A program made the position numbers and the translations under genes. From positions 1-26,129 of the IMG/VR virus record IMGVR_UViG_3300008108_000460: a stretch of 26,129 nucleotides of DNA. The stretch is one strand, 5' to 3'. The stretch's first letter is position 1; each line of letters starts with the position of its first letter. The DNA is from a virus. Of the stretch, positions 2,995-26,129 are shown piece by piece. Below the pieces are notes generated by a model, which was not told where the DNA came from, made no database searches, and saw only the letters and a list, made by a program, of their open reading frames with translations.

Positions 2995-3732
2995 TTATTC
3001 AGATAACAACTCATCCTCAACCTGAGATTTTGCGATGATAAATGATTTAACTATTCCTGAACGAACGATATCTTCTATACCAAATTCAATGATATCAAAT
3101 TCAGGCATCTTTTCAATAATCTTCATGAAATGCGGTAGACCTGAAATATCCCACTTAGATTTAATAAGATCGTTTTGTAACCAATCTCCACAAAAGAAAA
3201 TCTTAGTGTTCTTACCAACACGTGTTATAACTGTTTCTAATTCCTGTGCCGAACAATTTTGGAACTCATCTAGAATAATGAACGTATCATTAATTGTTGT
3301 TCCACGTAAGAAAGAAGTAGAACAAAATTCAACAATTCCTTTTGTTTTTAAGATTTCAAATGCATCTCCTCTACCAAATAATTCTGCGAAGATACCACGA
3401 TAAGGATCTTCATATACAGCCATCTTTTCTTTCAGAGTTCCTGGCAAAAATCCAACGTCTCTTGATGAAACAGTTGATCGAATAATCATTATTTTTGTTG
3501 GATGGTCGTTAGCAGTTCTATCTCTCTTTATTAATTCTGAGAGAGCCAAATACAATGATATATAAGTTTTACCAGTTCCCGCCGAACCACAAAGAACAAG
3601 ATTATAACCTTCTCCAAAAGCATCAAAGACATCTTGCTGAGCTTCTGTAATAGGTTGTATCTTTTTCAAAGAAAATGAATTATCTATTGTTGGTTCCAAA
3701 TTATTTTTGGAGTTTCTTGGTTTTCTTGACAT
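2995..3732 (-). CDS. phoH: PhoH-like ATPase
   Basis: 245 residues. Walker A is GSAGTGKT (residues 49-56). Walker B is IILDEFQN (about 152-159), the PhoH form of the motif (usually DEAQN). PITEAQQDVFDAF before Walker A matches the PhoH N-terminal Q-like motif, and RSTVSSRDVGFLPG is the family signature between the Walker motifs. PhoH proteins are ATPases/helicase-like enzymes of RNA or phosphate-stress biology, and their role in phages is unsettled. AAAGGA lies at good spacing before the ATG. The first 25 residues are a basic extension. Confidence 0.87.
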   Translation of the reverse strand: MSRKPRNSKNNLEPTIDNSFSLKKIQPITEAQQDVFDAFGEGYNLVLCGSAGTGKTYISLYLALSELIKRDRTANDHPTKIMIIRSTVSSRDVGFLPGTLKEKMAVYEDPYRGIFAELFGRGDAFEILKTKGIVEFCSTSFLRGTTINDTFIILDEFQNCSAQELETVITRVGKNTKIFFCGDWLQNDLIKSKWDISGLPHFMKIIEKMPEFDIIEFGIEDIVRSGIVKSFIIAKSQVEDELLSE

Positions 3733-4129: not shown

Positions 4130-5302
4130 TTAAAATAGAATATCCTCATCATCGAAGTTTGATGCTTTATTTGAATTTTGTGTTTCAGCTTCGATAGTAA
4201 TAGATTCATCGATTTTTTGATATAATGAATAGAAAGATTTTTTAGTATCAGAATCAAATCTTGAAGTACAATACTTAATAGATTTCATTCTAGTTCCACC
4301 TACGATAGCAAAGAATCTGATAATATGAATCAATCTTCTAGTTGTAATAATATCATCAATTCCTCCGACATCAAATGTATCACGAATAGTTTTTGCCCAT
4401 TCAACCAATTTATTCGCAAACTCAACACTGTCATTCGTTTTACAATTCAACGAATCAAGAATATTAGTTAGAATCTTGATTTCGATTTCTTTTGATGGAT
4501 ATTCATGTTCTACGTTCATAGCAAATCTATCGAGCAGAGCTTCGTTCAAAGTATTTGATCCGATATAACGTCCATCATCAGATGCCTTTCCTTTTGTATT
4601 TGCTGTTGCAATAATATTGAAACCTTGAACTGGATGAATAATAGTATTGGTCTTCTTTATATAAATTGGATTACCTTCAAGAATAGGTTGAAGACACATA
4701 ATTTTATGCGTCCCCAAATTAATTTCATCTAATAAAAGAATAGCGCCATGATTCATTGCTTCTACAACAGGACCATCTTGCCACACAGTTTCTCCATTAA
4801 CTAGACGATAACCTCCAATCAGATCATCTTCATCAGTAGATTCTGTAATATTAACACGAAATAATGGTTTTTTAGTTTGAGCACAAACTTCATATACCAT
4901 CTTAGTCTTACCATTACCAGATTCTCCAGAAATATAAATTGGAAAGAATGCTTTAGAAGAAACAATTTTTTTAACTAGAGAAAAATCACCGAATGCTACG
5001 AACTCAGGATCTTTAATTGGAATTAAATTGATGTCATGGATGTGTTCTACCTTTTTTTCTGATACGAGTGGTTTCTGTTTATCAGGAGAAGGTGGTCTCT
5101 TTAATTCAATGACACCAGAAGAATCGGATTGTACATTCGAATCAATTTTATATACTCCTCGCCTAATCTTATTAGAATCGGTAGTCATGAATTCTGTAAA
5201 TTGTTTTTTTAAAGAATACTTATCTGCTACGATAGTTAATTCCGGTCTAGTGAATGTAGTTTGTCCTGGATACTCATTTCTAATAGCTTCAATAAAGTTC
5301 AT
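4130..5302 (-). CDS. CobS/MoxR-like AAA+ ATPase
   Basis: 390 residues. A CobS-type N-terminal region (YPGQTTFTRPELTIVADKY) precedes a Pro/Lys-rich linker (65-90) and a AAA+ domain. Walker A is GESGNGKT (126-133) and Walker B is ILLLDEINLG (about 188-197). Between them is DEDDLIGGYRL, the MoxR/CobS-type segment, and after them a sensor-1 IIATANTKG. Phage proteins of this type are often labelled CobS, but no CobN-like chelatase subunit is present, so cobalamin synthesis is unlikely. It is divergently transcribed from a VWA/metallopeptidase-like gene. MoxR-type ATPases typically pair with VWA proteins as remodelling chaperones, so the two probably act together. AAGGAG and a sigma70-type promoter precede the ATG. 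Confidence 0.85.
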   Translation of the reverse strand: MNFIEAIRNEYPGQTTFTRPELTIVADKYSLKKQFTEFMTTDSNKIRRGVYKIDSNVQSDSSGVIELKRPPSPDKQKPLVSEKKVEHIHDINLIPIKDPEFVAFGDFSLVKKIVSSKAFFPIYISGESGNGKTKMVYEVCAQTKKPLFRVNITESTDEDDLIGGYRLVNGETVWQDGPVVEAMNHGAILLLDEINLGTHKIMCLQPILEGNPIYIKKTNTIIHPVQGFNIIATANTKGKASDDGRYIGSNTLNEALLDRFAMNVEHEYPSKEIEIKILTNILDSLNCKTNDSVEFANKLVEWAKTIRDTFDVGGIDDIITTRRLIHIIRFFAIVGGTRMKSIKYCTSRFDSDTKKSFYSLYQKIDESITIEAETQNSNKASNFDDEDILF

Positions 5303-9728: not shown

Positions 9729-9818
9729 GGAAAATTGGCAGAGTGGTATTGCACCTGATTGCTAATCAGTGGTCGTCCTGAAAGGGATACACAAGTTCGA
9801 ATCTTGTATTTTCCGCCA
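9729..9818 (+). tRNA. tRNA-Ser(GCT)
   Basis: Acceptor GGAAAAT/ATTTTCC, discriminator G and encoded CCA. The anticodon loop TTGCTAA gives GCT. A long variable arm (GTCGTCCTGAAAGGGATAC region) fits serine. The T-arm is ACAAG-TTCGAAT-CTTGT. All conserved positions seem present. Confidence 0.9.
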
Positions 9819-9846
9819 TTGCGTTTTTGTTGTAAATATACAATAA

Positions 9847-9911
9847 TAGTGAGGTAAAGCGTTCGACTGATAATCGAAAGACCGACGGTTCGATCCCTTC
9901 CTCGTCCACCA
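9847..9911 (+). tRNA. tRNA-Ile(GAT)-like gene lacking a D-arm
   Basis: The 3' two-thirds are clear: anticodon arm TTCGA-CTGATAA-TCGAA (anticodon GAT), T-loop TTCGATC, acceptor strand CTCGTCC, then A and CCA. The 5' part is not. Only about eight bases separate the candidate 5' acceptor strand (TAGTGAG, five pairs counting G-U) from the anticodon stem, so no D-arm can form. It is either a tRNA pseudogene or a D-armless tRNA. Confidence 0.55.
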
Positions 9912-9940
9912 AATTGAATAATAAGTAAAGGATAATAATC

Positions 9941-11002
9941 ATGAGTCTATTTGTTAAGAATGGAAGTAATTATCGAGTTACATCGAATGAGAATTTAGAT
10001 GTGCGAACGATGTTACCAGCAGGAACTTATAATGTTAAGTATGATACTATGAAGAATGAGTTTTCTTTGAATCATATTGAATCTTTTGACATTCCTAATA
10101 AATTGTATGGCGATCTAACAAAGAATCGTGATCGAATTCTGAATACATTCAACGATCGAGAATCTTCAACTGGTGTTATTTTGTGTGGTGAAAAGGGTTC
10201 GGGAAAATCTCTTCTAGCAAAAGCTATCTGTATTTCTGCAGCCGAACAAGGAATTCCGACTATCATCATTAATCAACCATGGTTTGGTGACACGTTTAAC
10301 ACTTTCGTTCAATCAATTAAACAATCTGCAATTATTTTCTTCGACGAATTCGAGAAAGTTTATTCGGGGAAAGAGGCTCAAGAAGCTATTCTAACACTTT
10401 TCGATGGTGTTTATCCAACCAAGAAAATGTTTATTTGTACTTGTAATGATAAATTCAAGATTGATTATAATATGAAAAATCGACCAGGAAGAATCTATTA
10501 CATGCTAGATTTTACTGGACTAGAAGTATCATTCGTTCGTGATTATTGTGAAGAAAATCTAATCAACAAGTCTAATATCAATTCAGTTTGTAATCTATCA
10601 ATGGCATTCAATAACTTCAATTTCGATATGTTGAAAGCTATTGTTGAAGAAATGAATCGATATGACGAAACAGCAAATGAAGTAATTAAGGTTATTAACA
10701 CCAAAATGGAATTCGTTTCTCCTTCTAAATATAAGATCGAGTTCACACCAAACCGTGAGTTGAATATCCAAGAAGGTAGCGTTGAGAAAATATATACTGG
10801 AAATCCTATTACTAATAATGTGCTACTAAATTATTATATTGTTGGGGATGATGGTGAGATGTATGGTCAAACCACTTTCTCGCCAAATGAAATTGTTGTG
10901 TTAGATCCTTCTGGAAAAATCGTCTATGTTAATTCTGCTGGCGATAAGTTGGTCTTGATCAAAGAAGAAACGAAATTAGTTATGCATAATTTCAAATTCT
11001 AA
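9941..11002 (+). CDS. AAA+ ATPase, unknown role
   Basis: 353 residues. Residues about 55-230 form an AAA+ core: Walker A GEKGSGKS (83-90), Walker B IIFFDEFEKV (about 131-140), sensor-1-like FICTCNDK, and an arginine-finger-like RPGR. A helical lid follows. The first 50 residues and last ~110 residues are predicted strand-rich, and the C-terminus (YYIVGDDGEMYGQTTFSPNE) may be a separate beta domain. The single-gene arrangement between tRNAs gives no partner. AAGGA precedes the ATG. A protein-remodelling ATPase is a fair guess, without a known substrate. Confidence 0.8.
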   Translation: MSLFVKNGSNYRVTSNENLDVRTMLPAGTYNVKYDTMKNEFSLNHIESFDIPNKLYGDLTKNRDRILNTFNDRESSTGVILCGEKGSGKSLLAKAICISAAEQGIPTIIINQPWFGDTFNTFVQSIKQSAIIFFDEFEKVYSGKEAQEAILTLFDGVYPTKKMFICTCNDKFKIDYNMKNRPGRIYYMLDFTGLEVSFVRDYCEENLINKSNINSVCNLSMAFNNFNFDMLKAIVEEMNRYDETANEVIKVINTKMEFVSPSKYKIEFTPNRELNIQEGSVEKIYTGNPITNNVLLNYYIVGDDGEMYGQTTFSPNEIVVLDPSGKIVYVNSAGDKLVLIKEETKLVMHNFKF

Positions 11003-11014
11003 TAAATAGAGGGT

Positions 11015-11089
11015 GCTGCGATAGCTCAATGGTACAGCAGCAGTTTAGTAAACTGCAGATTGACGGTTCGATCCCGTCTCGCAGCTCCA
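11015..11089 (+). tRNA. tRNA-Thr(AGT)
   Basis: A perfect seven-bp acceptor GCTGCGA/TCGCAGC, then T and CCA. The anticodon arm GCAGT-TTAGTAA-ACTGC gives AGT. The T-arm is GACGG-TTCGATC-CCGTC. The D-arm has one mismatch. An A34 threonine tRNA is uncommon in bacteria. Confidence 0.85.
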
Positions 11090-11096
11090 ACTTTGA

Positions 11097-11170
11097 TGGG
11101 GTGTAGCTTAATGGTAAAGCATCCGACTTTGACTCGGAGTATGGGAGTTCGATTCTCTCCACCCTAACCA
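11097..11170 (+). tRNA. tRNA-Gln(TTG)
   Basis: Acceptor TGGGGTG/CACCCTA (one G-T pair), then A and CCA. It starts with T, as glutamine tRNAs often do. The anticodon arm TCCGA-CTTTGAC-TCGGA gives TTG. The T-loop is TTCGATT. Confidence 0.9.
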
Positions 11171-11188
11171 CTTAATATAGAGAATAAT

Positions 11189-11758
11189 ATGAAATATCTT
11201 TTTTGTGATACAGAAACAAGCGGAATCGATCCATCTAAGCATGGAATTATCCAAATTGCTGGTTTAATTGACATTGATGGGGAAATCAAAGAATCTTTTG
11301 ATATTAAGATACAACCCTTTCCAAATCAATTGATCTCAAAAGAATCTATGAAGATCAATGGACTTACTGTAGAGGATCTTAAGACATTTCATAAACCACA
11401 AGAAGGTTACGCCTTATTGACTGAAATATTTTCGAAGTATATTTCTAAGTTTGATAAAACAGATAAGTTCTTTTTCGTTGGGTATAATTCAAATTTCGAT
11501 GATTCATTTCTAAGACAATTCTTTATTAATTCTGGAGATGAATATTATGGTTCTTGGATTTGGTGGCCGACAATTGATGTATCATCATTTGCTATGGAAT
11601 TTCTGAAAGAAGAGAGATCTAAATTTCCAAATTTCAAATTGGTAACTGTTGCAAAAGCTTTTGGTATCCCAGTTGATGAATCTAGATTGCATGAAGCAGT
11701 ATATGATTCAATTCTAACACGCTCGATATATCGAAAGATGATTCTTGGGATTGACTAA
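11189..11758 (+). CDS. DnaQ-like DEDDh 3'-5' exonuclease
   Basis: 189 residues, one domain. Exo I is FCDTETSGIDP (Asp7, Glu9). Exo II is VGYNSNFDDSFL (Asp near 106). Exo III is the ending RLHEAVYDSILTRSIY, with His and Asp spaced as in DEDDh enzymes. The length fits a stand-alone DnaQ-type exonuclease. It could degrade host nucleic acid or serve in proofreading or repair. It follows two tRNA genes closely, with GAGAAT as a weak ribosome-binding site. Confidence 0.85.
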   Translation: MKYLFCDTETSGIDPSKHGIIQIAGLIDIDGEIKESFDIKIQPFPNQLISKESMKINGLTVEDLKTFHKPQEGYALLTEIFSKYISKFDKTDKFFFVGYNSNFDDSFLRQFFINSGDEYYGSWIWWPTIDVSSFAMEFLKEERSKFPNFKLVTVAKAFGIPVDESRLHEAVYDSILTRSIYRKMILGID

Positions 11759-11779
11759 ATTGTAATTTTAAGTTAAAAT
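11751..11779 (+). promoter_or_regulatory. Sigma70-type promoter
   Basis: TTGACT (11751-11756), a 17-bp spacer and TAAAAT (11774-11779), overlapping the end of the exonuclease gene. It leads into the next gene, which has GGGAG before its ATG. Confidence 0.6.
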
Positions 11780-11796
11780 GAATATGGGAGAATACT

Positions 11797-12087
11797 ATGA
11801 TTAAAGTGAGTATTGATGGAAAGAATTACGTTCTTGATTTTGCTTATTCTATGGATAAGCGTGTAGGATCGAATTCCGGAAGGATCACCACAGCAATGTT
11901 ATTTGAAGATCTTGGAAATAAGAAAGATCAAAATTATTCCAAACCTGATTATATCGGTGTAGCAATGAAACATCCTAAGGATCGAGATGTTAAGGAAAAT
12001 GCGAGAAAGGCTGCAATTCGGAAGCTAGTCTCTCGGTTTGATTATGAAACTCGTTCATCTGTGTGGGCAGCTTATTTTGCACGATGA
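11797..12087 (+). CDS. Small unknown protein
   Basis: 96 residues, unknown. The order is a strand pair (MIKVSIDGKNYVLDFAYSMD), a charged middle, then a helical basic C-terminus (ENARKAAIRKLVSRF). No cysteine clusters or membrane segment. It has its own promoter and a clear GGGAG ribosome-binding site, which supports a real gene. It may be a small early host-interaction protein, but nothing in the sequence identifies a target. Confidence 0.65.
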   Translation: MIKVSIDGKNYVLDFAYSMDKRVGSNSGRITTAMLFEDLGNKKDQNYSKPDYIGVAMKHPKDRDVKENARKAAIRKLVSRFDYETRSSVWAAYFAR

Positions 12088-12116
12088 TAAATATTAAATA
12101 ATTTATGGAGAGATAG

Positions 12117-12620
12117 ATGACTGTTCTTGTTTTAAATTCACAATATTTGCCCATACAAACAACTTCGGTAAAGAAAGCTGTAAAATTGATTTATCGTGGT
12201 GTTGCTGTGGCAGAGAAGTACACAGAACAAGTATGGAAATCTATCTCTTCAGAAATGATTCTTCCGGCTGTTATTCGTCTAATCAATTTTCATAGATTAC
12301 CGAATAGATCTTATAAGTTATCTAAGAAGAATATTCTCATCAGAGATAGATATACTTGCCAATATTGTCAGGGAATCTTCTCTGAAAGAACTCTGACATT
12401 AGATCATGTTATTCCAAAATCAAAGGGTGGATCTTCTCGTTGGGAAAATTTAGTTGCCGCTTGTAGAAAGTGTAATTCTAAGAAAGCCGATAAGACACCC
12501 GAAGAAGCGTGCATGAGATTGTTGTCGAAACCAATGAAATTGACAGTCCACACTCACACAACAATATTGAGAAATAAAGGAGAATCAAGACCAGAGTGGT
12601 CTGAGTTCTTATTCAATTAA
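12117..12620 (+). CDS. HNH endonuclease
   Basis: 167 residues. The C-terminal half holds a complete McrA-like HNH: RDRYTCQYCQ (first zinc CxxC), LTLDHVIPKSKGG (catalytic DH), WENLVAACRKCNSKKAD (Asn plus second CxxC). The N-terminal half (VLNSQYLPIQTTSVKKAVKL) is the usual companion domain of this stand-alone family. Such genes may be homing-type mobile nucleases or nicking enzymes used in packaging or exclusion. The position in a tRNA-rich accessory region favours a mobile element. GGAGAG precedes the ATG. Confidence 0.88.
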   Translation: MTVLVLNSQYLPIQTTSVKKAVKLIYRGVAVAEKYTEQVWKSISSEMILPAVIRLINFHRLPNRSYKLSKKNILIRDRYTCQYCQGIFSERTLTLDHVIPKSKGGSSRWENLVAACRKCNSKKADKTPEEACMRLLSKPMKLTVHTHTTILRNKGESRPEWSEFLFN

Positions 12621-12631
12621 GGAATATATGT

Positions 12632-12925
12632 ATGAATAATTTTATAGAAGATCTTGATGTTTTTTGGAATATATTGAGATATATTGTAACGATTGGTGCA
12701 ATATTCTTATTTACTGTAAGTTTCTTGTATTCAGGAAAACAGGAATCATATTATATCTCTCAAGAATCTAATAGCAAAACGCAATTTTATTGTGTGTATG
12801 CGGATATTAATTGGAGGCCAGATCAACTAATTTATTGCTCAGGGAATATTGTTAATGTCTTGATGATTAAGAATGCAGTGTCTTCACAGACACAGAATGA
12901 TTCTTTAGAAAAGAAAGTCGATTAA
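12632..12925 (+). CDS. Small membrane protein
   Basis: 97 residues. One membrane segment (about residues 15-32, YIVTIGAIFLFTVSFLYS) follows an acidic N-terminus, so the C-terminal part is probably outside the inner membrane. That part has two cysteines (FYCVYAD and IYCSGN), which could form a disulphide in the periplasm. An uncleaved anchor is more likely than a signal peptide because no clear cleavage site follows. Function unknown; superinfection exclusion proteins often look like this, but there is no specific evidence. Confidence 0.65.
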   Translation: MNNFIEDLDVFWNILRYIVTIGAIFLFTVSFLYSGKQESYYISQESNSKTQFYCVYADINWRPDQLIYCSGNIVNVLMIKNAVSSQTQNDSLEKKVD

Positions 12926-12929
12926 CAAT

Positions 12930-13005
12930 AGTTCCATAACTCAATGGTTAGAGTGCTTACCTTATAAGCAAGTGGTTCTCGGTTCGAATCCGAGTGTGAC
13001 TACCA
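12930..13005 (+). tRNA. tRNA-Ile(TAT)
   Basis: Acceptor AGTTCCA/TGTGACT (one mismatch, one G-T), then A and CCA. The D-stem ACTC/GAGT is perfect. The anticodon loop CTTATAA gives TAT, with one mismatch in its stem. The T-arm is CTCGG-TTCGAAT-CCGAG. It would read ATA, a codon used in this AT-rich genome but rare in many hosts. Confidence 0.85.
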
Positions 13006-13008
13006 AAT

Positions 13009-13083
13009 GCCCCTATAGTTCAACGGAAAGAACACTAGTCTACGAAACTAAAGATCCAAGTTCAAGTCTTGGTAGGGGTTCCA
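13009..13083 (+). tRNA. tRNA-Arg(ACG)
   Basis: Acceptor GCCCCTA/TAGGGGT (first pair G-T), then T and CCA. The anticodon loop CTACGAA gives ACG. The T-arm is CCAAG-TTCAAGT-CTTGG. It starts four bases after the tRNA-Ile, so the two are co-transcribed. Confidence 0.87.
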
Positions 13084-21301: not shown

Positions 21302-21721
21302 ATGACACATTGGTTATATGAGAATAAAGGAATAGAAGATATTCCTGAAGGATATTTTGGATTTGTATATTTGATTACAAATACAAAAACAGGAAGAATG
21401 TATATTGGTAAGAAACAATTTAATTCTTACCGTTCAAAGAAAATAAAAGGCAAAACAAGAAAGAAAAGATTCGTTCTTGAATCTGATTGGAAAGATTATT
21501 GGGGATCTTGTGAAGAATTGAAAGAAGATATTAAGATTTTAGGAGAAGATTCTTTCAAGAGAGAGATTCTTAAATTATGCAAAACACGTGGTGACTTAAC
21601 TTATTCAGAAGTAGAATTTCAAATAAAAAAAGACGTCCTAACAGCTTTAGATTCTGAAGGACGTCGTTTATATTATAATTCAAATATAATGAGTAGATGG
21701 TTTTCTAAGTCAAAATCGTAA
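21302..21721 (+). CDS. GIY-YIG-type nuclease-like protein
   Basis: 139 residues. The N-terminal half starts GFVYLITNTKTGRMYIGKKQ, a GIY-YIG core (VYL...YIGK), with basic helix positions RSKKIKGKTRKK. A conserved-looking SDWKDYWGSCEELKEDI and a LTYSEVEFQ helix (with Glu) follow. This form of stand-alone GIY-YIG protein is common in T4-like phages and is often called a homing endonuclease, though some family members may be structural or repair enzymes. It lies on plus, alone among minus-strand late genes, ending with a 17-bp overlap to the radical SAM gene on the other strand. Confidence 0.75.
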   Translation: MTHWLYENKGIEDIPEGYFGFVYLITNTKTGRMYIGKKQFNSYRSKKIKGKTRKKRFVLESDWKDYWGSCEELKEDIKILGEDSFKREILKLCKTRGDLTYSEVEFQIKKDVLTALDSEGRRLYYNSNIMSRWFSKSKS

Positions 21722-22856
21722 ATTCATTTGAAATATATGCTTGTTTACCTTGTATCCATGTTGAAATCATAGCATGTTCGAGAAGTGTTAAACCAGGAAA
21801 CTTACTTAAAGGTAGAACCCCAGACTTAATATATTCTTGTTCGAAGAATTCAAACAATTTAAAATACATCTCACATAATTCAGTTTTATTTCTCCAATCA
21901 TATTTAATTCCAGTTCCAGGACATTGCCCTTTACACATAACAAAAAATCTACATCCTTTACAACCACCATATTCTTGTGGTGTATGATATAATGCGACTT
22001 GTCTTTCATATCCATATGTATTTGACTTGAAGAAATTTATTCCTTCTTTATTAGTTCTTCCGCAATTATGTCGATTTCCTTGACCATCTACAGCTCTTAC
22101 TGCTTGTGTTGTGTGTGGATCGCAAGCTTGGAATGTGCATGTTGCTTGTTGATCGTCGCCCAATAACATTCTCTTTATGTCATTAAACATATCAAATTTC
22201 ATATTCTTAAGAGTTGTTTCAAATTTAGCCATATCTAACATAATCTGTACATTCTCTTCTGACGTTAAACCAAACTGTTCTGTGATAGAATCATATTCAA
22301 CTTCAAGTACATGAAGTCTAACACTCATAATACCTTTTTCGTCAAGTTCTTTCAACCAGATTTTCAATTTATCTAGATTAGACGTATTGTATTTTGTTAA
22401 TGTTACAATTAACGAAGGAATAACACCACTATCTAACATCTTATCAATAGCATCTAGAGTCAATTTAGATTTTCTTCTTGTTTCTTCCAAAGAACCTGAC
22501 CACCTAGAATCATTCAATTCATCGGGACCATCTAATGATACACCAACCGAAACATTGTATTTCTTGAATAATTCAATATGTTCGTCTGTTATTAGAGTAC
22601 CATTAGTTTGAATACCATTTCTTCCATATTTTTGAAAACCAAATTTCCATAATTCTTCAATGGTTTTTATATCAGTAAGAAGTGGTTCTCCACCAAATAG
22701 AGCAAAATAATCTCCTTCTTTTTCGAGAGCCGAAATCATCTTATCTAAATCATATTCCTTATCTGGATAATTGCCAGCTTCTCTCATTGGATGCTCATAA
22801 CAATACGGACAACTTAGATTACATGTTATACCAACTGGACTAACTTCGATACTCAT
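21705..22856 (-). CDS. Radical SAM/SPASM enzyme
   Basis: 383 residues. C-x3-C-x2-C at 12-19 (TCNLSCPYCYE) binds the [4Fe-4S] cluster that cleaves SAM. FGGEPLL (about 53-59) is the SAM-binding GGEP motif, and VGVSLDGPDELND the typical strand-5 motif. The C-terminal 150 residues hold a SPASM-like cysteine set: RHNCGR, GGCKGCRFFVMC, KGQCPG and ELCEMYF, enough for one or two more clusters. SPASM enzymes mostly modify ribosomally made peptides or proteins (anSME, PqqE, RiPP maturases). It is the last gene of an operon with a DUF483/methyltransferase protein and a His-x-Asp repeat protein, so one of those, most likely the latter, may be its substrate. Confidence 0.88.
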   Translation of the reverse strand: MSIEVSPVGITCNLSCPYCYEHPMREAGNYPDKEYDLDKMISALEKEGDYFALFGGEPLLTDIKTIEELWKFGFQKYGRNGIQTNGTLITDEHIELFKKYNVSVGVSLDGPDELNDSRWSGSLEETRRKSKLTLDAIDKMLDSGVIPSLIVTLTKYNTSNLDKLKIWLKELDEKGIMSVRLHVLEVEYDSITEQFGLTSEENVQIMLDMAKFETTLKNMKFDMFNDIKRMLLGDDQQATCTFQACDPHTTQAVRAVDGQGNRHNCGRTNKEGINFFKSNTYGYERQVALYHTPQEYGGCKGCRFFVMCKGQCPGTGIKYDWRNKTELCEMYFKLFEFFEQEYIKSGVLPLSKFPGLTLLEHAMISTWIQGKQAYISNEFTILT

Positions 22857-23379
22857 GATACATTTCTTCTCCTGTCAAAAATTTATTTCTTATTTCATTG
22901 AACCACATAGTATAGTAATTTGAAACCGTATCTCTGAATATCCAAATTTTTGGTAACATATTCTTAACAGATTCCAAATCAGTCGAATTAGTTACTAAAC
23001 CATATAGATTGGAATTAAAGATATTGCACTTCAAATCGTTCGATATTATTTGGATATCTTCATCACTTAATCTTTGATTAGTGAAGAATATATCATTATT
23101 CAATAACATTGTTGGTAGAGAAGAATCAAATTTTTCTGACAAATATTTCTCAACAGTATCATATTGAATTGTCATGATAATCTTCAGATTAATTTTATAT
23201 GATTGTTTATTAATCATCCAATCTATCTTATTGATTAATGATGTTAAGAAATATTGATTTGGATTTGTTTTAAAGAAAATAAGAAGATTTATTTCATTCT
23301 TCTTAAATTTAGATATGCATCTCCATATATGGATGATATCGTTATATTGTAGTGAGTTATATTCAAATATTAGATTCAT
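22840..23379 (-). CDS. Unknown protein of the radical SAM operon
   Basis: 179 residues, not recognised. It is a mixed alpha/beta protein that begins with strands (MNLIFEYNSL, then INLLIFFKTN and INLKIIMTIQ). It continues through ISNDLKCNIFNSNLYGLVTN and ends with an aromatic, acidic helix (YYTMWFNEIRNKF). Lack of cysteine clusters argues against a second radical SAM enzyme. Its ATG shares four bases with the stop of the methyltransferase gene, and its end overlaps the radical SAM start by 17 bp. It is therefore translated with both and may be a substrate-binding or scaffold partner. Confidence 0.65.
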   Translation of the reverse strand: MNLIFEYNSLQYNDIIHIWRCISKFKKNEINLLIFFKTNPNQYFLTSLINKIDWMINKQSYKINLKIIMTIQYDTVEKYLSEKFDSSLPTMLLNNDIFFTNQRLSDEDIQIISNDLKCNIFNSNLYGLVTNSTDLESVKNMLPKIWIFRDTVSNYYTMWFNEIRNKFLTGEEMYHEYRS

Positions 23380-24806
23380 ATTATATTAAAAGATTTCTGT
23401 TTCTGTTTCATTACAAATTTACCAACATAAGCACAACAATTAATACCTTCTATTTTTGTTGTGTTTGAAAATTCAACATCAATACTGTTGAGATATTCAA
23501 CAAATCTACTCGATTCTGATTGCCAATCAGAATAATTATACAACAAAACAGTTGATTCGTTTTGAATTAACCAATCAATAAGGTGTCTTGAAGATTCTTC
23601 TAAAAATCTACCATACATTATTATTGATAGGTCTATGTTTTTTTGTAACCAATCTGCAGATTTATTGAAAATATTTTGATTATAAAATTCACCAAAAGAA
23701 ATATTTAAACCTATTCGATCAAATCTTTCTTTATCTAATTCAACACCATATATATCTTTAATATCAAATTGTTTAGATATTTTCTTCAGTAATTCCGCAT
23801 TACCGCAACCAAAATCTATAACATTCTTGAAAGATATTTGTGATTGTGTTAGTGCTTCAATAAGAATATTGTGACTATATTCCATAGATTCCAAAGAATA
23901 AAAACCATTATCTTTCCATAAATTATTTATGTTCAACGATCTCTTAAAGGATTTAGATTGCGTTATCTTTATTTTCGATTTATTAATATAAGGAAATGAA
24001 GTACCAGATGCTCCAAGTTCTGGGTATGAGAAACCTTCTCTTTTGACTTCATATAATTCAGCTGTTGCATCTGTTCTTGAGGATATCTTTAATATCGGCG
24101 ATTTTATTTCCGCAATTCCATGTAATGCAGACCAACTTACAGGCCAATCTAACATTTCTTCAATTACATCGATATCTTCATCATATCCTAAAGAACGACC
24201 AAATTCTAAATATTTTCTTCCCAATTCATATGTATGTTGACAATTAAAAGAACATGGAAGATGACTAACAGCTCTAATACCAATCCATCTTAGAAGAATA
24301 TTACATTCCTTTGGTCCAACAGTACCTGCTAAACTCATTGGATAAGTGGTATCTACGAATTGCTCATCTACCCAATATTTCTTGAAGAAATCCGTACAAC
24401 ATTTCGGATAACCTAATAATCTACCAATTTCTTCATCATTATTAGTATTCCAAGCAGATAACCAAGAATCAACATAATCCTTATGTAAGAGGACGCATCG
24501 AACTGTGTAATTATACTTATCCGTTGTAATCTGTGATGTATTACTATATTGATCGGTTGCTTTTGTTTTGATTAGAGGTATTAATCTAAATTCTGAAGAA
24601 GAAAGAGATATTTGTTTGTCTATGAAGTCAGAATGAGACATAGAAGTCAAATTGGCAGGTTTAATACCTACCAATACTAATTCTTGTTCTATGTTTTGGA
24701 ATGCTTGCGAAGCTTTCTGTATTTTGGGTTCCCAGAAACTTTTTGCTGGTTCACTAACCCAAATAATGCGTGTCCAATCGTGCAATAAAAAATTCAATCT
24801 ATTCAT
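23376..24806 (-). CDS. DUF483-like domain fused to a SAM methyltransferase
   Basis: 476 residues. The N-terminal ~250 contain LLGYPKCCTDFFKKYW (about 130-145), the LGYPxCC mark of DUF483-type proteins, then HLPCSFNCQHTYELGRKYLE with three more Cys/His positions. A metal or Fe-S site is likely. Residues about 330-470 are a Rossmann methyltransferase: motif I VIDFGCGNAELL, an acidic YGVELDKERF, and later LSIIMYGRFLEES. The fusion places a possible metal-binding substrate domain and a methyltransferase in one chain. Its ATG follows the stop of the His-x-Asp repeat gene by 12 bp. Together with the radical SAM gene it suggests peptide or protein modification. The substrate is not known. Confidence 0.78.
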   Translation of the reverse strand: MNRLNFLLHDWTRIIWVSEPAKSFWEPKIQKASQAFQNIEQELVLVGIKPANLTSMSHSDFIDKQISLSSSEFRLIPLIKTKATDQYSNTSQITTDKYNYTVRCVLLHKDYVDSWLSAWNTNNDEEIGRLLGYPKCCTDFFKKYWVDEQFVDTTYPMSLAGTVGPKECNILLRWIGIRAVSHLPCSFNCQHTYELGRKYLEFGRSLGYDEDIDVIEEMLDWPVSWSALHGIAEIKSPILKISSRTDATAELYEVKREGFSYPELGASGTSFPYINKSKIKITQSKSFKRSLNINNLWKDNGFYSLESMEYSHNILIEALTQSQISFKNVIDFGCGNAELLKKISKQFDIKDIYGVELDKERFDRIGLNISFGEFYNQNIFNKSADWLQKNIDLSIIMYGRFLEESSRHLIDWLIQNESTVLLYNYSDWQSESSRFVEYLNSIDVEFSNTTKIEGINCCAYVGKFVMKQKQKSFNII

Positions 24807-24818
24807 ATAGATTACTTA

Positions 24819-25406
24819 TTAAGCAGTAAAATCTCCATGTACAAATTGTGGATAATCTATATGTGTATCATAAAATGGAATCTCAATATCTGCATGTGTT
24901 GTTGATATATCAGAAAAATCTTGGTGAGATCCATTATTCAAATAAGAATCAACGTGAAATCCTGGAACAGTAGAGAAGTCATTATGATTTGTATATGAGT
25001 CCCCATGTGCCCCACTATCTGAATGTGATGAAGACAGATCTTCATGATCAGAATGACTACCATTATCGGTGTGCCCCTCATCTTGATGATAAGACACTTT
25101 ATATTTCTGCGATCCCGTCGAATATGTTGATGATATGCAAAGTTTAGAAGATTCTATCCAAATAGATCCATTGATAGAAGAATCGATTCCTGTTGGAGTT
25201 GATAAAGAATAATAATTTAATCTTCTTTCATAGTTAGAAGAATCGATATATCTTATGACTAAATCCGAATCCGTCCAAATTGAACCCGGAATCGCACCAC
25301 TTCTATAATCTCCGACTATACCAAGATATCTATATGTTTGAGCTGTAGCTGGGCTAAAATATAAATAATCTCCTTCAACCCATAACGATCCTGTTGTGAT
25401 TGCCAT
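24819..25406 (-). CDS. Fibre-like protein with 12 His-x-Asp motifs
   Basis: 195 residues. The N-terminal ~100 have three beta repeats beginning GS-[LI]-W-[VTI]-[ED]: GSLWVEGDYLYF, GSIWTDSDLVIRY and GSIWIESSKLCIS, as in adhesin or tail-fibre shafts. The C-terminal ~90 residues hold twelve H-x-D motifs (HQD, HTD, HSD, HED, HSD, HGD, HND, HVD, HQD, HAD, HID, HGD). They are 3-7 residues apart at first and 8-11 apart later, separated by small polar or aromatic residues. T4 fibre tips use H-x-H ladders to bind iron; H-x-D could do the same with other metals. As first gene of the operon with the modifying enzymes, it is the natural candidate substrate. Confidence 0.75.
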   Translation of the reverse strand: MAITTGSLWVEGDYLYFSPATAQTYRYLGIVGDYRSGAIPGSIWTDSDLVIRYIDSSNYERRLNYYSLSTPTGIDSSINGSIWIESSKLCISSTYSTGSQKYKVSYHQDEGHTDNGSHSDHEDLSSSHSDSGAHGDSYTNHNDFSTVPGFHVDSYLNNGSHQDFSDISTTHADIEIPFYDTHIDYPQFVHGDFTA

Positions 25407-25415
25407 ATACTATAT

Positions 25416-26099
25416 TTATGTTGCCCAGTAATTTGTTCCGACTGGAATTACCAATCTATATGAAGAACCAGAACCAGAAACCTTTCCTGTAAATACTGCT
25501 TGTCCAGAACTTCCTGGTGCAGATGTTCCAACACCAAGACTACTAAATTGTATGTTCTTTGTTGATGTGTAACTAGTCCAATTATTTTCTGTTAAGATAG
25601 TATATGCAACGGCTCCCATTGACCATCCACCAACTTTAAGATCAGTTCCGTCTAATCCAAAGTATACTGCATATGCCCCTGGTCTGTGGAAGGCCATAAA
25701 TGCTGCATTTGCTCCAGAGCCACCATAAACTTCAATACCACCTAATGAACCAGTGGATGTTGCTAAGGCAGTTGATTGAGAAGCACTAGCAACTATTCTA
25801 CCAGAGAATGACCCAGTTGTAGCTGTTACGCTTCCACCTGAAAGATTAGTTGCTGTTGTAGCTGTAGTTGCGTTTCCTGATAATGTAGCTGTAATTGTTC
25901 CAGCTGAGAAGTTACCAGAAGAGTCTCTTAACACAATTTGACTTGCACTATTAGTTGAAGAAGCTGTAATTGTAGCAGAGTTGGCTTGTCCAGATATAGT
26001 TGAAGCTTGGCCATTTATGTTCATTGTTTGGCCACTTATAAATGAAGCAACTTTTGCAGCTGTAGCAGATCGGAAATAATTATCTCCAAATTTAGCCAT
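25416..26099 (-). CDS. Tail-fibre-like protein (possibly extends beyond the window)
   Basis: 227 residues from the ATG at 26099. It is Ser/Thr/Gly/Ala-rich, with repeats of the form LxxxSGNFSAGTITATLSGN followed by ATTATTATNLSGG, typical of phage fibre shafts. The C-terminal ~60 (SLGVGTSAPGSSGQAVFTGK ... SSYRLVIPVGTNYWAT) look like a compact tip. The frame stays open upstream to the window edge (30 bases, no stop), so the true start may lie outside. At 26099 there is no clear ribosome-binding site. It is followed closely by the His-x-Asp gene. Confidence 0.78.
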   Translation of the reverse strand: MAKFGDNYFRSATAAKVASFISGQTMNINGQASTISGQANSATITASSTNSASQIVLRDSSGNFSAGTITATLSGNATTATTATNLSGGSVTATTGSFSGRIVASASQSTALATSTGSLGGIEVYGGSGANAAFMAFHRPGAYAVYFGLDGTDLKVGGWSMGAVAYTILTENNWTSYTSTKNIQFSSLGVGTSAPGSSGQAVFTGKVSGSGSSYRLVIPVGTNYWAT

Positions 26100-26129
26100 A
26101 ATATATGTTATCGTACCAGCACTAATATC

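Follow-up and report, generated by a model that had tools for sequence, protein, structure and literature searches.

The window analysed here is the whole 26,129-nucleotide stretch of IMG/VR virus record IMGVR_UViG_3300008108_000460, a 26-kb record with T4-like replication genes (clamp loader, sliding clamp and recombination exonucleases). Our subject is a four-gene operon on its minus strand, which encodes a protein rich in His-x-Asp motifs (HxD, where x is any residue), a DUF483-methyltransferase fusion, a protein of 179 amino acids (aa) and a radical S-adenosylmethionine (SAM) enzyme with a SPASM domain. Judged by its sequence and its relatives, this operon likely encodes the means by which the phage matures a tail protein of its virion. 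A preliminary description made from the letters alone had recognised four tightly coupled open reading frames (ORFs), their domains and a tail-fibre-like neighbour; ORF coordinates and Pfam bear out the former, with a 12-bp gap, a 4-bp overlap and a 17-bp overlap from gene 1 to gene 4, and the gene upstream of the repeat gene (25416 onward) indeed matches PHROG tail/fibre families. Positions in the window are as follows.

24819..25406, minus strand: HxD / aromatic-x-Asp repeat protein, the proposed substrate (195 aa, 12 HxD; gene 1 of the operon)
25095..25406, minus strand: N-terminal domain of the repeat protein, aa 1-104, with three GS-x-W-[V/I]-[E/D/T] repeats
24831..25088, minus strand: repeat region, aa 107-192, with aromatic-x-[Asp/Asn] triplets
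23376..24806, minus strand: DUF483-class I methyltransferase fusion (476 aa)
23943..24806, minus strand: DUF483 domain, about aa 1-288 (PF04467; invariant P134, C136, C137, D152, G176 and C189)
22840..23379, minus strand: 179-aa protein without assigned function
21705..22856, minus strand: radical SAM/SPASM enzyme (383 aa; CNLSCPYC and a seven-Cys SPASM motif)
25416..26129, minus strand: tail-fibre protein, 5' end beyond the window (PHROG tail/fibre matches)
21302..21721, plus strand: SegE-like GIY-YIG homing endonuclease (PF19835, E=1.1e-39)

The repeat protein and its sequence rule

Every one of the 12 His in the window's repeat protein has Asp at +2, which agrees with the 12 motifs counted in the preliminary description and compares with a mean of 1.2 and a maximum of 6 HxD in 20,000 shuffles of the whole protein; shuffles of the 91-residue tail gave a mean of 1.8 and a maximum of 9. 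Seen from the Asp, an aromatic residue stands at -2 of all 14 in the repeat region (12 His, 2 Phe), and the triplets run in the order HQD, HTD, HSD, HED, HSD, HGD, HND, HVD, YLN, HQD, FSD, HAD, FYD, HID, HGD. The His-x-Asp motifs are present as first described, and aromatic-x-[Asp/Asn] is a better description of the repeat than His-x-Asp alone.

The wider rule can be read from the relatives of this protein, with the reservation that the sequences compared are related by descent. Of 2,566 repeat-region His in 75 non-redundant proteins, 91% have Asp at +2 and 5% have Asn, and within repeat regions Asp or Asn stands two positions after 98% of His, 46% of Phe, 36% of Tyr and 25% of Trp, as against 10% or less for any non-aromatic residue. 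When all Hx[D/N] were masked and the remainder shuffled, 231 F/Y/W-x-[D/N] triplets were observed where 53 were expected (z=27); this excess is confined to +2, a position at which aliphatics are depleted, and vanishes at +3 (z -0.2) and +4. A prophage protein outside the statistics set (L330, the L numbers being our locus labels) follows the rule at 32/32 His, 17/18 Trp and 18/26 Tyr. In aligned homologues, whose pairs are not independent, conservation is 90% for the motif His, 94% for the Asp/Asn and only 30% for the middle residue, the commonest replacements of His being Phe and Tyr, and in one locus (L057) the repeats are HxN, not HxD. On these sequences, the repeat rule is aromatic-x-[Asp/Asn], wider than His-x-Asp. 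Outside the repeats the proteins are more varied: two or more GS-x-W-[V/I]-[E/D/T] repeats occur in 33 of 68 non-redundant repeat proteins, the remainder having other N-termini, often of fibre type, and many terminate in HxDxPx[YFL][VI]GP or similar.

Co-occurrence with the enzyme and the tail-gene setting

The preliminary description read the operon as one that modifies a virion adhesin, and proposed looking for enzymes without repeats and for repeats without enzymes. Co-occurrence in both directions supports it. A scan by alignment, over IMG/VR and bacterial genome collections, for relatives of the enzyme gave 60 distinct enzyme clusters, and in 58 of these an ORF with HxD or HxN repeats lies within 6.5 kb of the enzyme. 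The two exceptions are both truncated contigs: in L020 the expected position of the repeat gene falls past the contig end, and L037 resembles phage phiLo, whose repeat genes lie ~4.4 kb downstream. The repeat gene is usually the adjacent upstream gene of the enzyme; of 64 cases, 22 show a 4-bp overlap between the two genes and 51 a distance within about 70 bp. Most enzyme loci also encode DUF483, as a rule joined to a methyltransferase. By contrast, the 78 loci of other, unrelated radical SAM enzymes taken as controls (less than about 40% identical over short stretches, mostly below 30%) include none with a repeat-protein neighbour; the single count of 8 motifs belongs to an ordinary cellular ORF in L150. 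Two loci in bacterial genomes with phage-like context (L329 and L330), matched by the enzyme profile alone, both carry repeat protein, enzyme and DUF483, and the enzyme is rare in the groups sampled around their two bacterial hosts (1/399 and 3/398 genomes).

The reverse test used a DNA pattern, (HxDx)4, that makes no reference to the enzyme. It returned at least 120 stretches, most of which were dropped as simple DNA repeats or for want of an in-frame ORF. Among the matches listed, the record also contains the enzyme for about 18 of 20 real heterogeneous HxD proteins. Of the two others, one contig ends inside the repeat gene (L272) and one is a fragment of ~19 kb (L291). Such pattern-based scans give lower bounds, and many of the records are fragments. 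The near-universal association extends to cultured phages, since tblastn against annotated phages finds the same gene set in Thermus phages. In Cumys and phiMa the order is repeat protein (53-54 HxD; Cumys 54), enzyme and a DUF483 protein without methyltransferase, while in phiLo the enzyme itself has an HxD tail and two more repeat proteins follow downstream, with 72 and at least 45 HxD.

Tails of this kind recur. Many of the radical SAM enzymes bear a C-terminal HxD tail of up to 24 motifs (L002:7001-8449, L003:7001-8251, L322:853-2874), and one clade (L025-L036) has a separate ORF of 118-132 aa with 4 HxD between the enzyme and DUF483; these are possibly sites of self-modification or a recognition piece. 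In other loci (L222:10403-13316, L322 and L323) the radical SAM genes stand in tandem pairs downstream of one repeat protein.

Many unrelated phages carry the module, set among tail genes. At other loci collagen-type tail fibres, or N-terminal parts of other fibre-like kinds, bear the repeat region, and the fibre upstream of the window's repeat gene ends in VIPVGTNYWAT (codons 25419-25451), a type of tag that recurs on module-adjacent fibres of unrelated phages, including a Chengkuizengella locus and Thermus phages. Upstream fibres often end in the consensus [VI]xPVG[TA][ND]x[WY]A[T]; the strict pattern finds just 14 IMG/VR contigs, and in 10 of these the enzyme is in the same record.

The radical SAM/SPASM enzyme and its partner proteins

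The enzyme belongs to the radical SAM superfamily (PF04055, 64.2 bits against a cut-off of 29.5), and its cluster motif CNLSCPYC (C12, C16 and C19) is invariant across 58 homologues. Tested against the pattern CX9-15GX4C-gap-CX2CX5CX3C-gap-C, it has the full SPASM motif (C245-x14-G260-x4-C265 ... C299-x2-C302-x5-C308-x3-C312 ... C328), again with all seven Cys invariant in the 58 homologues, and it shares 46-47% identity with the Cumys and phiMa enzymes. Models of AmcB (best E 3.2e-28), YhhB and FxsB match 58/58 of the enzymes, those of GrrM and XyeB 57/58, and those of the anaerobic sulfatase maturase (anSME) and of DynA match as well. The window enzyme nevertheless scores far below the cut-offs of the curated cyclophane maturase families (AmcB, YhhB, GrrM/OscB, XyeB and FxsB; 38-71 bits against 310-450), of the anaerobic sulfatase maturase TIGR03942 (83.4 against 349) and of HxsB (42 against 370). 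The nearest solved structure is the anSME 4k36 (E 2e-26), followed more weakly by ChlB and others. Because the window enzyme lies so far below every curated cut-off, its clade looks like a separate family.

DUF483 is recognised in the window fusion at 31.7 bits (cut-off 25), and P134, C136, C137, D152, G176 and C189 are invariant in alignments of 45 and 43 rows. AlphaFold2 models are confident, with a mean local confidence (pLDDT) of 91.6 for the fusion and 93.0 for a stand-alone homologue, the latter with a global score (pTM) of 0.89. The predicted DUF483 fold has no PDB or viral structure match at E<=0.001 (best E 0.11 and 0.16), and the candidate relative 2guk was unconvincing, with a TM-score of 0.58 over 111 residues; because the structure searches gave no significant match, we assign DUF483 no enzymatic role. 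The methyltransferase part falls under the Pfam cut-offs, with a PDB-profile match at 2.5e-9 that its fold supports, and it has the Rossmann fold and motif I (DFGCGN) of a class I SAM methyltransferase. By profile and fold its nearest solved relatives are the plantazolicin methyltransferases, whose substrate is a ribosomal peptide. It is present in most modules and missing from the complete modules of the Thermus phages, L081, L329 and L330, and is dispensable to the module. The 179-aa protein has no Pfam, NCBIfam or convincing PHROG match; ORFs in the same place, of similar size (179-211 aa) and N-terminal sequence, occur only in freshwater T4-like relatives, and it is probably an optional accessory. 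Firmicute-type modules carry additional proteins with a WHxD...H...R motif (L057:7157-7846, L057:11561-12751 and L081:4164-5599), one of which is PHROG_1843, of unknown function. By their motif they look like Fe(II)/2-oxoglutarate oxygenases and might hydroxylate the same repeats.

Proposed crosslinking of a tail adhesin and its alternatives

If a SPASM enzyme is so regularly encoded next to a repeat protein, then the repeat protein is very probably its substrate, and the form of the repeat suggests a reaction. Enzymes that form three-residue cyclophanes are SPASM radical SAM proteins; they link an aromatic ring (Trp, Phe, Tyr or His) to C-beta of the residue two places further on (i to i+2), with precedents for Trp-Asn/Asp (OscB), Tyr-Asp (YxdB) and His-Ala (HaaB) (PMC11002830). 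Like these triceptide systems (XncB, OscB, MscB, YxdB, HaaB and YhhB), the module pairs a SPASM enzyme with a neighbouring putative substrate full of aromatic-x-X motifs that follow the i to i+2 spacing; rings of His, Tyr, Trp and Phe, and Asp or Asn as the C-beta partner, all have precedents there (PMC11002830). An adjacent substrate with aromatic-X-X3 motifs, in which X3 has a C-beta hydrogen, is what a triceptide enzyme calls for, and a candidate of that form is found here; aromatic-x-[Asp/Asn] is the substrate signature of such enzymes. Among the crosslinks, epimers and methylations that had been put forward as possible modifications, crosslinking fits best, since Phe, Tyr and Trp replace His in register while Asp/Asn stays at +2, and the bond is likely a three-residue cyclophane.

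We lean towards a scheme in which widespread phages use a radical SAM enzyme and DUF483 to staple a tail adhesin with dozens of His-Asp (also Phe/Tyr/Trp-Asp/Asn) cyclophanes into a covalently stiffened rod. Gene 1 would encode an adhesin-like tail protein with an N-terminal domain and a flexible aromatic-x-[Asp/Asn] region, mostly His-x-Asp. The SPASM enzyme would cleave SAM reductively and then abstract hydrogen from the Asp/Asn beta carbon, which would become bonded to the aromatic ring at position -2. The product would be a series of three-residue cyclophane staples, each with a mass change of -2.016 Da and about 10 to 90 per chain, turning a disordered chain into a stiff, protease-resistant and heat-stable rod or tip that may associate with the fibre encoded just upstream. 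DUF483, with its invariant Cys-Cys and further Cys, would probably bind or present the substrate or tailor it further, and the methyltransferase, where present, probably adds methyl groups to the product. Whether stiffening and adsorption are indeed the function seems to us evenly poised.

The phage module also departs from the known triceptide systems. Its putative substrates are virion tail proteins of ~170-1,470 aa with up to ~100 motifs, as opposed to small secreted peptides, and they are not short precursor peptides with a leader, many having fibre-type N-termini. The partner is DUF483 or its methyltransferase fusion, the window enzyme falls under all curated NCBIfam triceptide cut-offs, and the crosslink is a prediction. 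The His-Xaa-Ser (HXS) system, HxsABCD, likewise pairs a His-x-X repeat protein with a radical SAM maturase; membership in that family is rejected by the HxsB score (42 against 370 bits) and by a +2 residue that is Asp (91%) or Asn (5%), HxD/N as opposed to HxS. The partner genes also differ, and among the models listed for the genes examined no other Hxs model gave a hit. The anSME share the SPASM architecture and are the best solved-structure relatives (4k36), with an unrelated substrate motif, and no sulfatase was seen. In the T-even phages, gp38 is a separate adhesin encoded just downstream of fibre gp37, whose C-terminus it caps. That a modified tip might cap the fibre here in the manner of gp37/gp38 is an attractive idea and no more than an analogy; no sequence relation was seen, and the repeat region is aromatic-x-Asp, not Gly-rich, and comes with modifying enzymes of its own.

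It is possible, if unlikely, that the repeat protein is modified in some other way, whether by epimerisation, C-beta hydroxylation or oxidation, a dynobactin-like bond from His N to C-beta, or methylation of His or Asp by the fused methyltransferase. Among the closest profiles are those of the anaerobic sulfatase maturase and of the dynobactin enzyme DynA, a methyltransferase is fused in most members, and the extra protein of L057 and L081 has an oxygenase-like HxD...H motif. Epimerisation or oxidation of a single residue, however, needs neither an aromatic at i nor Asp/Asn at i+2, and we judge both improbable on that ground; a His-type C-N bond is impossible for Phe, yet Phe replaces His; and the methyltransferase is missing from several complete modules (Thermus phages, L081, L329 and L330).

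We consider it improbable that the HxD repeats form a metal-binding (Zn, Fe or Ca) tail region while the enzymes act elsewhere or maintain the metal site. Metals are often bound by His and Asp, and the tail tips of other phages include His-rich metal sites, but the in-register substitution of Phe, Tyr and Trp (z=27), with WSD, YND and HSD interchanged in one protein, leads us to reject metal binding alone, which moreover requires no radical SAM enzyme, whereas the co-occurrence is essentially complete.

The module has also been credited with DNA modification, which we hold to be less probable still. The preliminary description knew of no described phage system with this gene set, and in part this has to be amended: a 2024 paper on Thermus phages noted the radical SAM, DUF483 and third gene of Cumys and phiMa as an 'rSAM module' and, from cyanobacterial relatives near deazapurine genes, proposed DNA modification (Viruses 2024, 16:1410, PMC11437467). 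The histidine repeats and the tail nature of the third gene go unmentioned there (PMC11437467), so that the repeats themselves were missed. In Cumys, the gene beside the enzyme and DUF483 encodes the protein with 54 HxD, and in many phages the module sits in tail operons, translationally coupled to the repeat gene, for which reason we reject DNA modification as the main role. SPASM domains are in general typical of enzymes that modify peptides and proteins. That low-complexity tail repeats and a moron cassette merely share a hot spot of gene exchange, as tail-fibre neighbourhoods are, is the least credible account, given that 58/58 testable clusters have the repeats, that the genes overlap, that enzymes themselves end in HxD tails and that bacterial genomes twice gave blind confirmation.

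Several points weigh against crosslinking as proposed. The support is comparative genomics throughout, from homologues that lack phylogenetic independence, and the modification is deduced from it. The top match of the window enzyme is the anaerobic sulfatase maturase, and profile likeness leaves the reaction unfixed. Tyr obeys the rule in only 36% of cases, and in 2 of 17 in L057, and may be targeted only sometimes. The HxN-only repeats of L057 and the oxygenase-like genes in Firmicutes suggest that the final product may vary, and the roles given to DUF483 and the methyltransferase are tentative proposals. In the Acidobacteria contig L150 (5598-8185), DUF483 stands beside a divergent radical SAM gene and no aromatic-x-Asp repeats are present, so this pair may act on other substrates in cells.

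If crosslinking of the tail adhesin is nonetheless correct, chemistry of the ribosomal-peptide type would be seen on a virus particle for the first time, and the rod would be unlike known beta-helical or collagen-like fibres. Self-stapling of a tail adhesin is previously undescribed for viruses; apart from PMC11437467, the open-access literature yielded nothing linking phage tails with radical SAM, cyclophane or ribosomally synthesised and post-translationally modified peptide (RiPP) chemistry. Viruses would harden their receptor-binding machinery by radical chemistry, triceptide enzymes would act on large structural proteins beyond small peptides, and the orphan DUF483 family would gain a function alongside processive enzymes that place many crosslinks per chain. 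The presence of the module in Thermus phages would fit a mechanism for heat- and protease-stable adhesion, and Cumys, phiMa and phiLo are isolated phages that carry it.

Around the operon, the SegE-like homing endonuclease is convergent with the radical SAM gene, covers 17 bp of its 3' end and is outside the modification system; a similar convergent arrangement is retained in relatives L008, L018 and L020. No DNA-modification genes were found among the scanned ORFs of the window, a 26-kb genome fragment. Elsewhere the window carries five tRNA genes (Ser, Thr, Gln, Ile and Arg) at 9729-13083, an ATPase at 4130-5302 that PHROGs label as porphyrin biosynthesis (phrog_249), and a PhoH-like gene at 2995-3732.

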